Assembly (NCBI GenBank): GCA_937895985.1
Contig: CALBKL010000229.1
Span: forward strand, 1-11,939
Source: an uncultured Solobacterium sp.
GTDB taxonomy: Bacteria > Bacillota_I > Bacilli_A > Erysipelotrichales > Erysipelotrichaceae
Direction: 5' to 3'
DNA: 11,939 nt
In this document: positions 4,165 to 10,832 of the stretch, piece after piece
Layout of the letters: every line of letters starts with the position of its first letter
Position numbering within the stretch: position 1 is the stretch's first letter
The notes under the pieces: generated by a model
What the model saw: the letters and a program-made list of their open reading frames with translations, nothing else
Told to the model about the DNA's origin: nothing
Database searches by the model: none
Program-made: the position numbers and the translations under genes

Positions 4165-4193
4165 TAGACAAATAATACTGATAGTACTATGAT
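4165..4193 (+). promoter_or_regulatory. Promoter of the cys leader-cysK-cysE operon
   Basis: TAGACA (4165-4170, five of six matches to TTGACA) and TATGAT (4188-4193, five of six matches to TATAAT) are separated by exactly 17 bases. Transcription should start near 4200, about 33 bases before the leader-peptide ATG. The -35 starts two bases after the helicase stop codon. Confidence 0.7.
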
Positions 4194-4218
4194 AATTTCC
4201 GTAATAAGAACGGTGAAC

Positions 4219-4224
4219 AGGAGG
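4219..4224 (+). promoter_or_regulatory. Ribosome binding site of the cysteine leader peptide
   Basis: A consensus AGGAGG, eight bases before ATG 4233. It is as good as any ribosome binding site in the window and is the main evidence that the 29-codon leader ORF is translated. Confidence 0.85.
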
Positions 4225-4232
4225 AAACGGGC

Positions 4233-4322
4233 ATGAACAAACAAGTGATGAATCAAATGTGTTGCTGTTGTATTTTAAACAATGTCCGGATGAATGCTGT
4301 TACTGCGTCGGGGCTGCTTTAA
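4233..4322 (+). CDS. Cys-codon leader peptide of cysK-cysE (29 aa)
   Basis: A 29-codon ORF with a consensus ribosome binding site. Codons 10-13 (4260-4271) are TGT TGC TGT TGT, four consecutive cysteines after Met 9. Cysteine is a rare amino acid, and four in a row directly upstream of the cysteine biosynthesis genes is the hallmark of an amino-acid-sensing leader peptide. The rest of the peptide (ILNNVRMNAVTASGLL after the Cys run) has no recognisable domain, signal peptide or membrane segment. I infer that the act of translation matters, not the product: shortage of charged tRNA-Cys would hold the ribosome at 4260-4271, leaving 4282-4291 free to pair with the downstream terminator arm. Codons 17-20 encode that switching segment. 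The alternative is a tiny Cys-rich metal-binding protein, but one CCCC block alone is poor support for that. Confidence 0.85.
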   Translation: MNKQVMNQMCCCCILNNVRMNAVTASGLL

Positions 4323-4374
4323 TTTACCTTTATTGCAGTGATTCGTAAGCACAATAGTAAATAAATCCGGGCAT
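4282..4374 (+). promoter_or_regulatory. Putative antiterminator pairing of the cys attenuator
   Basis: Segment 4282-4291 (ATGTCCGGAT) can pair with 4365-4374 (ATCCGGGCAT) over 10 bp with a single G-U wobble. The second segment is the left arm of the terminator, so the two structures exclude each other. Between them, 4299-4306 can pair with 4335-4342 (8 bp, two wobbles), which would shorten the effective loop. Segment 4282-4288 can also pair with 4228-4234 (CGGGCAT, overlapping the leader start codon; 7 bp, one wobble), a possible anti-antiterminator. Pairings were found by eye; no energies were computed. Confidence 0.7.
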
Positions 4375-4403
4375 ATGAATGCATGCTCGGATTTTTGTTT
4401 TTT
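4363..4403 (+). terminator. Attenuator terminator before cysK
   Basis: A 12-bp stem with one G-U pair (4363-4374 with 4383-4394) and an 8-base loop is followed by a T-rich tract TTTTTGTTTTTT (4392-4403). It lies 40 bases after the leader peptide stop and 40 bases before cysK, so it can only act as a conditional terminator for the operon. It is probably also the only terminator available to helicase readthrough transcripts. Confidence 0.88.
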
Positions 4404-4443
4404 ACCGCTCCATATATTACATGAGAGAAAAGAGGAAAATACT

Positions 4444-5376
4444 ATGTCAAATATCAAAAAATCAACAACTGAATTAATTGGTCACACACCATTATTAGAA
4501 TTTACACACTTCGAAAAGGAACTTGGCTTAAAGGCACGTGTTGTAGCAAAAGTTGAATACTTTAACTTAACAGGTTCTGTTAAGGATAGAATTGCATATC
4601 AGATGATTGTAGATGCTGAAGAAGCAGGTTTATTAAAGCCGGGTTCTACAATTATTGAACCAACATCAGGAAATACAGGTATTGGTTTAGCTGCAGTTGG
4701 TACAGCGAAGGGTTATCGTGTTATTCTAGTAATGCCAGATACAATGACTATTGAGCGTCGTAAGATGGTTAAGGGTTATGGTGCAGAGGTTGTATTAACA
4801 GAAGGTGCCAAGGGTATGAAGGGCGCAATTGCTAAGGCAGAAGAACTTGCGGAAGGCATTGAGAACTCATTTATTCCACAGCAGTTCGAAAATATGTCCA
4901 ATCGTAAAGCACATTATTTAACAACAGGACCAGAAATCTGGGAAGATACAGATGGTAAGGTTGATATCTTCATTTCCGCTATCGGAACAGGAGGAACAAT
5001 CTCTGGTACAGGTAAGTATCTCAAGGAAAAGAACCCAAATGTGAAGGTGATTGGTGTTGAGCCAGCAACTAGTGCAGTATTATCAGGTGATGCACCAGGT
5101 CCACATAAGATTCAAGGTATCGGTACAGGCTTTATTCCTACAACATTAGATACAGACATCTACGATGAAGTTATCCGTGTTACAGATGAAGAAGCTTTCA
5201 CAACAGGTGCTGAAATCGGCAGAAAGGAAGGAATATTAGTTGGTATTTCTTCAGGCTCAGCAGTATACGCTGCACTTGAAGTAGCGAAGAGAGAAGAGAA
5301 TGCAGGTAAGTTAATTGTTGTATTACTACCTGATTCAGGCGATCGCTATTTATCAACTGCATTATTCGCAGAATAA
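4444..5376 (+). CDS. cysK: Cysteine synthase A (O-acetylserine sulfhydrylase)
   Basis: PLP-dependent cytoplasmic enzyme making L-cysteine from O-acetyl-L-serine and sulfide. The 310-residue length is typical. Visible motifs: PLP lysine Lys 47 in TGSVKDR, the substrate loop TSGNTG 74-79, the phosphate-binding GTGGT 181-185, GIGTGF 225-230, and the C-terminal PDSGDRY 296-302. The start is ATG 4444 with AGAGG (4431-4435) 8 bases upstream. An in-frame ATG at 4375 lies in the loop of the attenuator hairpin and is rejected. It is followed after one base by cysE, so the two genes are co-transcribed and probably translationally coupled. Expression should depend on readthrough of the upstream attenuator, which is predicted to open under cysteine limitation. 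Cystathionine beta-synthase-like relatives are longer or lack this tail, so CysK is the best call. Confidence 0.95.
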   Translation: MSNIKKSTTELIGHTPLLEFTHFEKELGLKARVVAKVEYFNLTGSVKDRIAYQMIVDAEEAGLLKPGSTIIEPTSGNTGIGLAAVGTAKGYRVILVMPDTMTIERRKMVKGYGAEVVLTEGAKGMKGAIAKAEELAEGIENSFIPQQFENMSNRKAHYLTTGPEIWEDTDGKVDIFISAIGTGGTISGTGKYLKEKNPNVKVIGVEPATSAVLSGDAPGPHKIQGIGTGFIPTTLDTDIYDEVIRVTDEEAFTTGAEIGRKEGILVGISSGSAVYAALEVAKREENAGKLIVVLLPDSGDRYLSTALFAE

Positions 5377-5377
5377 A

Positions 5378-6196
5378 ATGGAAAATTACGAAACACTACT
5401 CAAAGAACTAAATGATATTACGGATGAAGATCTAGTATTAAAAATGCGAATTCCTGATCGTACAAATATCATAACGATATTGAAACAGGTACAAGCAGTT
5501 ATTTTACCAGACTATTATCATGCTGGAATGTTAAACCAGCAACAAGCGCTCAACTATTTATCGGAAGGTTTACAGAAGGAAATTCAAGCATCTCTACAAT
5601 TTAAAGGTGCGGATTGTTCCATCTGTGGACATTTAAGAGATATGTTCTTGCAGGAGCTACCTGCAATCAAACGTTCTGTCTTAACAGATATCCAAGCGAT
5701 CTATGATGGAGATCCGGCGGCGAAATCAAAGCCGGAAGTTGTTATTGCATATCCTGGTTTCTACGCTATCTTTATCTATCGTATTGCACATGTGTTATAT
5801 AACTTAGGAGTTCCATATATCCCACGTTTAATGGCAGAATATGCACACGAAAAGACGGGAATTGATATCAATCCTGGTGCAAAGATTGGTGATTACTTCT
5901 GCATTGACCACGGTACAGGTGTTGTCATTGGCGAAACAGCAGTGCTTGGTCACCATGTGAAGTTATATCAGGGCGTTACACTTGGAGCGAAGAGTTTCAA
6001 GGTTGATGAGAATGGTGAGCTTGTAAAGGGTATAAAACGTCATCCAAATATTGGTAATAACGTTGTTATCTATGCCAATGCGACAGTTCTTGGTGGTGAT
6101 ACCGTAATTGGGGATGGTTGTGTGATTGGAGCGAGTGTATGGATTACTAAATCTGTAGAAGCTGGCACAACTGTATACTTTAATCCAAATAAATAA
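5378..6196 (+). CDS. cysE: Serine O-acetyltransferase (EpsC/CysE type)
   Basis: Transfers acetyl from acetyl-CoA to L-serine, giving the O-acetylserine used by CysK. The protein has 272 residues. An alpha-helical N-terminal domain (about 1-150) includes YPGFYAIFIYRIAHVLY. A left-handed beta-helix of hexapeptide repeats follows, from about 160. His 178 in IDHGTG and Asp 163 in GIDINPGA correspond to the catalytic His and Asp of the family. The long N-terminal region resembles the EpsC-type enzymes of Firmicutes and Bacteroidetes more than E. coli CysE. The C terminus ends YFNPNK and lacks the terminal Ile that docks into CysK in the classical cysteine synthase complex. The start is ATG 5378, one base after the cysK stop. 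No clear ribosome binding site is visible, so coupling is likely. The in-frame start at 5315 lies within cysK and adds unrelated residues. Confidence 0.92.
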   Translation: MENYETLLKELNDITDEDLVLKMRIPDRTNIITILKQVQAVILPDYYHAGMLNQQQALNYLSEGLQKEIQASLQFKGADCSICGHLRDMFLQELPAIKRSVLTDIQAIYDGDPAAKSKPEVVIAYPGFYAIFIYRIAHVLYNLGVPYIPRLMAEYAHEKTGIDINPGAKIGDYFCIDHGTGVVIGETAVLGHHVKLYQGVTLGAKSFKVDENGELVKGIKRHPNIGNNVVIYANATVLGGDTVIGDGCVIGASVWITKSVEAGTTVYFNPNK

Positions 6197-6242: not shown

Positions 6243-7652
6243 ATGAATACACAGCTAGCAGAAAAAATACGGAATGCAGAACGATTAACATTTTCCGATA
6301 AAATCAAATTGATACGAGATTTAAGTATCCCTGGCATCCTGGCAGTCATTACAGAGACGGTCATGGGATTTATTGATACAGCGATGGTTGGCGCACTTGG
6401 GGCATTAGCCTCTGCTTCAATTGGCCTCGTTATGTCGAGGACTTGGTTATTTGGTGAACTGATTAACAGTGTTTCAATTGGCTTTTCGGTGCAGGTTGCA
6501 CATGCTGTTGGGGCAGGAAAGCTTGATCGTAGTAGAAGGATATTTAAAGGATCGATTTTAACATCTTTATTGATATCATTTTTGATTGCTGGAATTTGTT
6601 ATGTGTGGTCACATGTTGCTCCATCTTGGTTACAAGCACAGCCGGAGATATGGAAAGATGCAATAGATTATTTAGGTTTATATGCAATCTTCCTTCCAAT
6701 ACGTCAGTTAAATTATTTGGTGAATGGTATGTTGCAATGTGCAGGTGATATGAAGACTCCAAGTAAGATGGCTGTATTAATGTGTGTATTAGATATTATC
6801 TTTAATTTTATTTTGATTTTCCCATCTCGTCTGATCTCAATCTTTGGTATTGAAATATGGGTATATGGTGCAAATCTTGGTGTTTTTGGTGCACAGCTTG
6901 GAACATCACTAGCAGTATGTGTATGTACTGTGATTTCCTTTAAGGTAGCCTTAACAAAATCAAAGGAATTACATATTAAAGAAATTCGTGGGAATTGGTT
7001 TGCTAGTAAAGAGGTATTGTCTTCTGCTTGGAAGATTGGAATGCCAAATGCATTAGCACAAAGTGTATTATGCATGGGACAGATTGCGTCAACAAAGATT
7101 ATTGCGCCACTAGGTACAGTGGCCATTGCGGCACATTCCTTTGGCAATACAGTAGAATCAATTTGTTATATGCCGGGCTATGGTATCGCGGCTGCAGCAA
7201 CAACATTAATTGGACAAGCGATTGGTGCTGGTAAGAAAGATCTTGCAAAAGACTTTGCGAATATTATTACATTATTGGGTATGTCTGTAATGGGTGGCCT
7301 TGCAATATTCCTATTCTTTACATCGCCGATGATTTTTGCAATCTTAACCCCGGACGTTGAAGTGCAAAGGCTAGGTGTCAGTGTAATTCGTGTTGTCATG
7401 CTTGCAGAACCATTATTTGCAGCGTCGATTGTAATTACAGGTGTATTACGTGGTGCTGGTGATACGGTGGTGCCATTTATACTCAATTTACTAAGTTTAT
7501 GGGGGATTCGTATTACACTAGCGTTTTTCTTGGCACCTACGATGGGTCTTATGGGGGCTTGGCTAGCGATGACGATTGATATTGCGATAAGAGGTGTATT
7601 ATATTTAATTCGGTTATATAAGACAAATTGGTTAAGTGGAGTAGGAGGATAG
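6243..7652 (+). CDS. MATE-family multidrug/toxin efflux transporter
   Basis: Multidrug and toxic compound extrusion protein of the cytoplasmic membrane, exporting cationic or amphipathic compounds by sodium or proton antiport (family knowledge). The 469 residues show about 12 hydrophobic segments in two homologous halves. The first half has the family pattern FIDTAMVGALGALA near 43-56, VQVAHAVGAGK at 83-93 and GMLQCAGDMKTP at 162-172. The second half has the matching GVLRGAGDTVVP. ATG 6243 is chosen because the alternative TTG at 6228 lies in the terminator T-run and would make TATAAT part of the coding region. There is no clear ribosome binding site, so a leaderless message is likely. The metallophosphoesterase gene starts five bases after its stop and its ribosome binding site lies in the last codons here, so the two form an operon. 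Substrate unknown. Confidence 0.92.
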   Translation: MNTQLAEKIRNAERLTFSDKIKLIRDLSIPGILAVITETVMGFIDTAMVGALGALASASIGLVMSRTWLFGELINSVSIGFSVQVAHAVGAGKLDRSRRIFKGSILTSLLISFLIAGICYVWSHVAPSWLQAQPEIWKDAIDYLGLYAIFLPIRQLNYLVNGMLQCAGDMKTPSKMAVLMCVLDIIFNFILIFPSRLISIFGIEIWVYGANLGVFGAQLGTSLAVCVCTVISFKVALTKSKELHIKEIRGNWFASKEVLSSAWKIGMPNALAQSVLCMGQIASTKIIAPLGTVAIAAHSFGNTVESICYMPGYGIAAAATTLIGQAIGAGKKDLAKDFANIITLLGMSVMGGLAIFLFFTSPMIFAILTPDVEVQRLGVSVIRVVMLAEPLFAASIVITGVLRGAGDTVVPFILNLLSLWGIRITLAFFLAPTMGLMGAWLAMTIDIAIRGVLYLIRLYKTNWLSGVGG

Positions 7653-10285: not shown

Positions 10286-10361
10286 GGAGGTTTAGCTCAG
10301 TTGGGAGAGCATCTGCCTTACAAGCAGAGGGTCAGCGGTTCGATCCCGTTAACCTCCACCA
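10286..10361 (+). tRNA. tRNA-Val (anticodon UAC)
   Basis: Full cloverleaf: acceptor GGAGGTT/AACCTCC, D stem GCTC/GAGC, anticodon stem TCTGC/GCAGA with loop CTTACAA (TAC, reading GTA), T loop TTCGATC, and encoded CCA. First gene of the array. Confidence 0.96.
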
Positions 10362-10369
10362 TTTTTTTC

Positions 10370-10445
10370 GCCGACTTAGCTCAATTGGCAGAGCAATTGA
10401 TTTGTAATCAATAGGTTGTAGGTTCGATTCCTATAGTCGGCACCA
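10370..10445 (+). tRNA. tRNA-Thr (anticodon UGU)
   Basis: Acceptor GCCGACT/AGTCGGC, anticodon stem ATTGA/TCAAT with loop TTTGTAA (TGT, reading ACA), T loop TTCGATT and encoded CCA. It lies 8 bases after tRNA-Val. Confidence 0.96.
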
Positions 10446-10452
10446 TTTATTT

Positions 10453-10537
10453 GGAGACGTAGCGAAGTGGCTAAACGCGGCAGACTGTAAATCTGCTCCC
10501 TCTGGGTTCGGTGGTTCGAAACCACCCGTCTCCACCA
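10453..10537 (+). tRNA. tRNA-Tyr (anticodon GUA)
   Basis: 85-base class II tRNA with acceptor GGAGACG/CGTCTCC, anticodon stem GCAGA/TCTGC and loop CTGTAAA (GTA). The long variable arm expected for bacterial tRNA-Tyr is present, and CCA is encoded. It lies 7 bases after tRNA-Thr. Confidence 0.96.
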
Positions 10538-10584
10538 TTTACTGATGATGCATCGAGTGATGCTTACGAGTTGGACTTGATTAT

Positions 10585-10659
10585 TGGGGTATAGCCAAGC
10601 GGTAAGGCAAGGGACTTTGACTCCCTCATTCGTAAGTTCGAATCTTACTACCCCAGCCA
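10585..10659 (+). tRNA. tRNA-Gln (anticodon UUG)
   Basis: Acceptor TGGGGTA/TACCCCA, anticodon stem AGGGA/TCCCT with loop CTTTGAC (TTG, reading CAA), and encoded CCA. It is preceded by an unusually long 47-base spacer. Confidence 0.95.
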
Positions 10660-10667
10660 TTTAAGAT

Positions 10668-10743
10668 GTCTCGGTAGCTCAGACGGTAGAGCAACTGACT
10701 TTTAATCAGTGGGTCGAGGGTTCGAGTCCCTTCCGAGACACCA
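10668..10743 (+). tRNA. tRNA-Lys (anticodon UUU)
   Basis: Acceptor GTCTCGG/CCGAGAC, anticodon stem ACTGA/TCAGT with loop CTTTTAA (TTT, reading AAA), T loop TTCGAGT and encoded CCA. Confidence 0.96.
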
Positions 10744-10758
10744 CTTTATTTAAGACAT

Positions 10759-10832
10759 GCGAGTGTAGTTCAATGGTAGAACGACAGCCTTCCAAGCTGT
10801 ATACGTGAGTTCGATTCTCATCACTCGCTCCA
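10759..10832 (+). tRNA. tRNA-Gly (anticodon UCC)
   Basis: 74 bases: acceptor GCGAGTG/CACTCGC, anticodon stem ACAGC/GCTGT with loop CTTCCAA (TCC, reading GGA), T loop TTCGATT and encoded CCA. Last gene of the array. Confidence 0.96.

Follow-up and report, generated by a model that had tools for sequence, protein, structure and literature searches.

The window, that is, the whole stretch of 11,939 nucleotides of an uncultured Solobacterium sp. that was analysed, carries cysK and a cysE-like gene on the forward strand, preceded by a leader region which sits between the end of a SNF2-type helicase gene (4162) and cysK (4444). The first gene encodes cysteine synthase A (TIGR01139, 438 bits for a cut-off of 351), 82% identical to the CysK of Bulleidia sp. 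zg-1006 (P0013), and the relatives of this protein suggest an origin in the Erysipelotrichaceae. The product of the second is closest to the serine acetyltransferase family TIGR01172 (cysE, E 1e-46), with 158.5 bits, which is under the cut-off of 210.65, and it has the Hexapep and SATase_N domains. A homologue of this protein is encoded in 39 of the 47 other loci of the set described below, some of which end too soon downstream. Elsewhere in the window, six tRNA genes (Val, Thr, Tyr, Gln, Lys and Gly) are clustered at 10286-10832; tRNA-Cys is absent from the cluster.

The features of the locus are the following:

4165-4193, +: candidate promoter TAGACA-17-TATGAT, 10 matches out of 12
4211-4222, +: segment 1, outer arm, which overlaps the Shine-Dalgarno sequence and pairs with 4295-4305 (predicted fold; the homologous columns covary)
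4219-4224, +: Shine-Dalgarno sequence AGGAGG of the leader, 8 nt 5' of the ATG at 4233
4228-4234, +: segment 1, inner arm CGGGCAT, which pairs with 4282-4288 (pairing test, covariation)
4233-4322, +: leader peptide ORF of 29 codons, stop TAA; its Cys run is kept in relatives
4260-4271, +: putative sensor, four tandem Cys codons TGT TGC TGT TGT, conserved in position
4282-4291, +: segment 2, for which segments 1 and 3 compete (pairing test and covariation)
4295-4305, +: segment 2, outer part, which pairs with 4211-4222 (covariation)
4309-4345, +: predicted middle hairpin, arms 4309-4317 and 4335-4345, with the stop codon in the loop
4363-4403, +: terminator made of segment 3 (within 4363-4374), segment 4 (4383-4394) and a U tract (fold, covariation)
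4444-5376, +: cysK
5378-6196, +: cysE-like gene

The leader ORF (4233-4322) translates as MNKQVMNQMCCCCILNNVRMNAVTASGLL. An initial annotation of this DNA, made from the sequence alone, had described the AGGAGG, the 29-codon ORF and the four Cys codons at 4260-4271, and all are located where it placed them. The leader thus has the ORF, the ribosome binding site and the run of codons for the product amino acid which are expected of an attenuator. The sequence TGYTGYTGYTGY is found twice in the window (at 4260 on the forward strand and at 7194 on the reverse strand), compared to 0.05 expected; the copy at 7194 is antisense inside a MATE gene.

The promoter is the weakest of the claims of this annotation. 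The box with its 17-base spacing is present, and it is retained in the nearest relative (L085), but such sites do not exceed chance: six are found in the 2.8-kb stretch scanned, for 9.2 expected. A -10-like hexamer (at least 5 matches out of 6) is seen in 34 of the 48 loci compared, window included, versus 21.5 expected after shuffling.

Conservation of the leader before cysK

A CysK search of the order Erysipelotrichales, to which the genome of locus L055 belongs (G001, Solobacterium sp. UBA3303), gives matches in 246 of 294 genomes. The best 90 matching places by similarity (L085-L174) were examined, with the Cys run defined as at least two Cys, adjacent or one apart, then a terminator. A Cys-run leader and terminator are present in 44 of these 90 cysK upstream regions, two of which are doubtful (L088, whose frame is uncertain, and L167, whose pairing is no better than shuffles). 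Two members of the attenuator set (L006, L055) are found among 80 named loci; L006 is labelled Phascolarctobacterium and sits on a 3.5-kb MAG contig. The 48-locus set consists of the window, L006, L055, L083 and the 44 loci of the order, L081 and L082 being omitted as duplicates of L006 and L055; in six of the 48, where the script missed a terminator, it was chosen by eye.

The conservation of the Cys run in a peptide that otherwise drifts was a test set beforehand, and it came out as predicted. In 34 non-redundant leaders aligned on their first Cys, the Cys frequency over the first five positions of the run is 1.00, 0.94, 0.82, 0.44 and 0.38, and beyond the run the commonest residue never exceeds 0.31 at any position. 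The runs of 42 loci use both codons (116 TGT and 38 TGC). Since the run is kept while the peptide drifts and both codons are used, the pattern fits a selection for the tRNA that is read rather than for the peptide. A leader whose peptide is itself active, either by nascent-chain arrest or as a small functional protein, would also have a short ORF, a consensus Shine-Dalgarno sequence and conserved Cys residues, but this explanation is extremely unlikely considering the drift outside the run, the use of both Cys codons and the replacement of the Cys run by His or Met in elements built on the same scaffold (see below).

The helicase gene ends about 200 nt 5' of the terminator, which could suggest the ordinary terminator of an upstream gene next to an ORF that occurs by chance. 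The probability of this is practically nil and conservation rules it out: the element is found again ahead of cysK in numerous genomes, and among 30 TGYx4 matches in three genomes (G087, G142 and G016), the only ones which lie in a frame of less than 70 codons without an overlapping ORF of at least 90 amino acids are three cysK leaders.

Other short ORFs with Cys codons were seen before cysK. In three of 79 named loci scanned and in three loci of the order (L020, L025, L046, L162, L151 and L170), a short ORF of another type, containing CC or CCC, lies about 70-135 nt before cysK; several of these ORFs read FFRCC, no terminator was seen with them, and a nearby TAGGAA-type box resembles a CymR/Rrf2 site. 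In five other loci (L138, L158, L159, L163 and L172), inspection by eye gives the order short CC/CCC leader, located far upstream, terminator-like hairpin, second small ORF and cysK, which is possibly another attenuator layout.

Competing pairings in the leader RNA

Both the terminator and the 10-bp pairing that competes with it, proposed by the initial annotation, are recovered at the same coordinates by sequence and folding. The intrinsic terminator between the leader and the first gene has a stem of 12 pairs (4363-4394) followed by the U tract; the stretch 4359-4404 folds at -16 kcal/mol (z -4.5), and none of 200 shuffles is as good. The antiterminator 2:3 pairs 4282-4291 (ATGTCCGGAT) with 4365-4374 (ATCCGGGCAT) over 10 bp, one of which is G-U, and the stretch 4278-4378 (-33.8 kcal/mol, z -4.0) is also better than all 200 shuffles.

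A third helix, 1:2, involves the flanks of the Shine-Dalgarno sequence, commonly GACGGC-GAAAGGAGA-CGGG, and the segment that follows the Cys run (CCCG...GCCGTC). In the window, 4228-4234 pairs with 4282-4288 and 4211-4220 with 4297-4305, so that segments 1 and 3 compete for segment 2. In the absence of a stalled ribosome, the 1:2 pairing would free the terminator. It is weaker in the window alone, where the 1:2 stretch folded by itself is not better than shuffles (z -0.6; 40 of 200). The mechanism proposed in the initial annotation holds as regards the antiterminator competing with the terminator, which covaries, but it was incomplete: the helix around the leader Shine-Dalgarno sequence had been missed.

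Covariation was measured on an alignment of 44 rows (A1), from which L006, L083, L167 and L088 are excluded and in which L087 is retained with a misaligned terminator. For the 2:3 helix, 84.4% of the cells are paired and 23 are changed on both sides, compared to 9.1 in shuffles, with a covariation score of 0.216 versus 0.117, above all 500 shuffles. The values for 3:4 are 92.9% of cells paired, 22 changed on both sides versus 6.0, and a score of 0.306 versus 0.165, again above 500 of 500 shuffles. For 1:2, 69.5% of the cells are paired, 54 are changed on both sides versus 29.2 in shuffles and the score, 0.276 versus 0.177, is above all 500 shuffles; of the five covariation measures of this helix, two are not distinguished from shuffles: 57 of 500 shuffles reach as many doubly changed pairs, and 306 of 500 as many additional pair types.

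The comparison of duplexes formed by a locus's own arms with those formed by permuted arms, which is free of any alignment, gives -14.8 versus -12.1 kcal/mol for 2:3 and -11.8 versus -9.4 kcal/mol for 1:2. For both helices, none of 20,000 permutations is as low as the own-arm mean, also in a 34-locus subset, bearing in mind that kinship among the loci keeps these permutation tests, and the shuffle tests, from being exact probabilities. Compensating variants are found in individual loci: CCTGG/CCAGG in L088, L101 and L107, CTCGG/CCGAG in L110 and, in the 1:2 helix, ATCCC/GGGAT in L123. In a structure-fitted alignment of 63 model matches, which leans to the model, 142 cells are changed on both sides versus 52.6. 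The aligned sequences thus indicate that the helices 1:2, 2:3 and 3:4 all covary, and the antiterminator, which would exclude the terminator, bears out the covariation of 4282-4291 with 4365-4374 expected from the initial annotation.

The evidence for the middle hairpin depends on how it is anchored. Anchored on the annotated stop codon, it is not significant (2824 of 20,000 permutations); anchored on alignment columns, a choice made after that null result, it gives 0 of 20,000, and 2 of 20,000 in a 30-row subset.

In Bacillota, control is usually exerted by T-boxes and repressors. A T-box, a metabolite riboswitch or a repressor such as CymR could accordingly be the main control, the leader being secondary, but this is very unlikely because no Rfam cis-regulatory family reaches its gathering score in the window, where no T-box or riboswitch is retained, and because the leader and its hairpins account for the conserved RNA. 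The search of 20 cysK loci outside the attenuator set for T-boxes gave none; the sole Rfam match there is a cobalamin riboswitch.

Alternatively, stalling on the Cys codons could act on how accessible the ribosome binding site of cysK is, and not on termination, a translational attenuation like that of mycobacterial poly-Cys ORFs. Cys-run ORFs described as lacking obvious terminators do precede the cys operons of actinobacteria (PMC1262725). Here, on the contrary, an intrinsic terminator lies downstream of the ORF, and the 5' arm of this terminator covaries with each of its two partners, whereas the mycobacterial type has no terminator hairpin, and transcription attenuation is preferred over this explanation, which is improbable.

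Codon runs on a shared scaffold

The element was looked for elsewhere with R1, a covariance model built on the terminated state, and with R2, the same model rebuilt with its own matches. R2 matches, training loci included, are found in 78 of the 315 genomes of the order at E<=0.01, and in 53 of the 315, in 60 places, at E<=2.5e-7. One of them, L160, is a further likely member outside the 48 loci (R2 E 1.5e-7). In draws from the phylum (392 genomes) and the class (346 genomes), for which the search filters are stricter because the draws are large, G001, G008, G016 and G060 are the only genomes with matches below 1e-6, and all four also belong to the order set.

A codon run is present in 17 of 20 further places matched by R1 (12 Cys, 3 His, 1 Met and 1 mixed); it is absent from the other three and from 11 of the 12 weaker places opened. 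Seven of the 12 Cys-run places precede cysK, identified by eye in five of these. The other Cys-run attenuators precede an ATC hydrolase with an ABC binding protein (L252, L254), an MFS_2 transporter (L245, L247) and a protein cut by the contig end (L243). The genes behind these five Cys runs are candidates for cysteine-related uptake or salvage.

The other runs consist of His, Met or Met+Cys codons. Three to six tandem His codons precede amino-acid substrate-binding proteins in L246 and L255 (SBP_bac_3 by Pfam), in L253 (binding protein by eye) and in L264, the sole codon-run case among the 12 weaker places, where HHHH precedes a similar binding protein (by eye). In L256, MMMRM precedes a MetN-like ATPase, which is below its cut-off, and a MetI permease, which is above. 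In L257, a mixed MMCCRM precedes an O-acetylhomoserine sulfhydrylase (metY-like), with a cysK match downstream on the same contig; the script search turned up no terminator in this locus. Leader readings and pairings were made for 11 same-scaffold elements, and the 1:2 pairing is weak in L245 (-5.1) and in L252 (-6.8, the first ATG being taken as the start).

Since the His, Met and Met+Cys runs precede genes of the matching pathways, the codon run tracks the downstream pathway. This match between run and gene, read from sequence, is strong indirect evidence for the attenuation mechanism. It is probable that the Erysipelotrichales have a family of attenuators which share one RNA scaffold and are programmable by amino acid, in which a swappable Cys, His, Met or Met+Cys run sits in the loop of a hairpin that involves the leader ribosome binding site. 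This family would control the supply of Cys, Met and His as a regulon, a role taken by T-boxes or repressors in other Bacillota. A shared scaffold with exchangeable codon runs suggests a route by which switches gain new specificities, and it predicts that a change of the codon run alone changes the amino acid that is sensed. Cys leaders can also suggest substrates for the MFS_2 and ABC transporter genes behind them.

Proposed mechanism and known systems

The leader is most likely, with a probability of about 0.9, a ribosome-mediated transcription attenuator which senses charged tRNA-Cys and controls cysK-cysE. The comparison of loci establishes its parts, their conservation and the covariation of 1:2, 2:3 and 3:4 at the level of sequence, and the initial annotation, which read the region as a Cys-run attenuator of cysK-cysE, is supported in these respects. 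From this pattern we infer that the leader is translated and that the ribosome stalls, as well as the direction of the cysteine response and the kinetics.

Four segments would compete: segment 1 flanks the leader Shine-Dalgarno sequence and reaches into the start codon, segment 2 follows the Cys codons, and segments 3 and 4 are the arms of the terminator. When charged tRNA-Cys is scarce, the ribosome would halt at the first Cys codons, in the loop of the 1:2 hairpin. The halted ribosome would separate segment 1 from segment 2, so that 2:3 could form and block the terminator, and cysK-cysE would be transcribed. When Cys-tRNA is plentiful, the ribosome would pass and leave, 1:2 would close and 3:4 would terminate transcription. 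In an untranslated leader, 1:2 would be expected to form first, which would keep the operon off.

The geometry is consistent with this scheme, considering the size of the ribosome footprint. In 44 of 44 rows, the core of segment 2 starts at least 19 nt past the first Cys nucleotide (median 23), so that segment 2 would remain accessible while a ribosome is stalled at the first Cys codons; from the last Cys codon, the core can be as little as 2 nt away. The core lies 13-47 nt 5' of the stop codon, and a ribosome at the stop would thus not always cover segment 2. For the OFF step, the favoured possibility is that 1:2 recloses after the passage of the ribosome. Equilibrium folding of the window leader does not predict the OFF state: it favours the antiterminated state (-55.7 versus -48.2 kcal/mol), also with a ribosome placed at the stop codon. 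Termination thus needs co-transcriptional kinetics, and the switch has to be kinetic if it operates as proposed.

The locus would offer a complete, covariation-supported 1-2-3-4 ribosome attenuator for cysteine in Bacillota, where T-boxes or repressors are expected, and the attenuator predicts the mode of regulation of cysteine supply in these anaerobes.

Attenuators with trp, his and leu leaders are known in enterobacteria. The present element is similar to them in its tandem codons for the product amino acid and in its competing antiterminator and terminator (as described for his in PMC9413887), but it differs by its Cys codons, by the genes cysK-cysE, by a segment 1 that flanks the Shine-Dalgarno sequence and by the position of the codons in the 1:2 loop. 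Before the his operons of six Erysipelotrichales species, and also in Eubacteriales and the Bacillus cereus group, attenuators are described that have three to five His codons, a terminator and an antiterminator (PMC9413887). They have the order in common with the Cys leaders and, on the basis of their description, differ in that they read His rather than Cys and precede his operons.

Leaders with Cys codons are also described elsewhere. In Rhodobacterales, uORFC-8-2 before cysS carries two Cys codons in tandem and has an intrinsic terminator downstream, and ribosome-mediated attenuation was proposed for it (PMC8632094); this likeness is found in Alphaproteobacteria, before a tRNA synthetase gene, and the Cys codons are within a stem of the published model. 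Cys-run leaders are described before the cys operons of Mycobacterium and P. acnes and before cbs of B. longum (PMC1262725), and the poly-Cys attenuators of mycobacteria were studied by Canestrari (2020, as cited in PMC13236596). These actinobacterial leaders likewise place a Cys-codon run in a short ORF ahead of cysteine genes, but the accounts cited report translation attenuation in M. smegmatis and, as far as they describe the leaders, no terminator hairpin.

The initial annotation knew of no such arrangement for cysK-cysE in this group, and likewise no report of Cys-codon attenuation of cysK-cysE in Erysipelotrichales was found in the open-licence literature. Ribosome-mediated attenuation is a known kind of regulation, and both Cys leaders (in actinobacteria and before cysS in Rhodobacterales) and Erysipelotrichales His attenuators are published, according to the sources cited above. 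Within Bacillota, leader-peptide attenuation is also described for the Leu-rich leader of the ilv operon of S. aureus (PMC5794164) and for His leaders of bacilli (PMC2965389), which, according to these accounts, act with other amino acids and on other genes.
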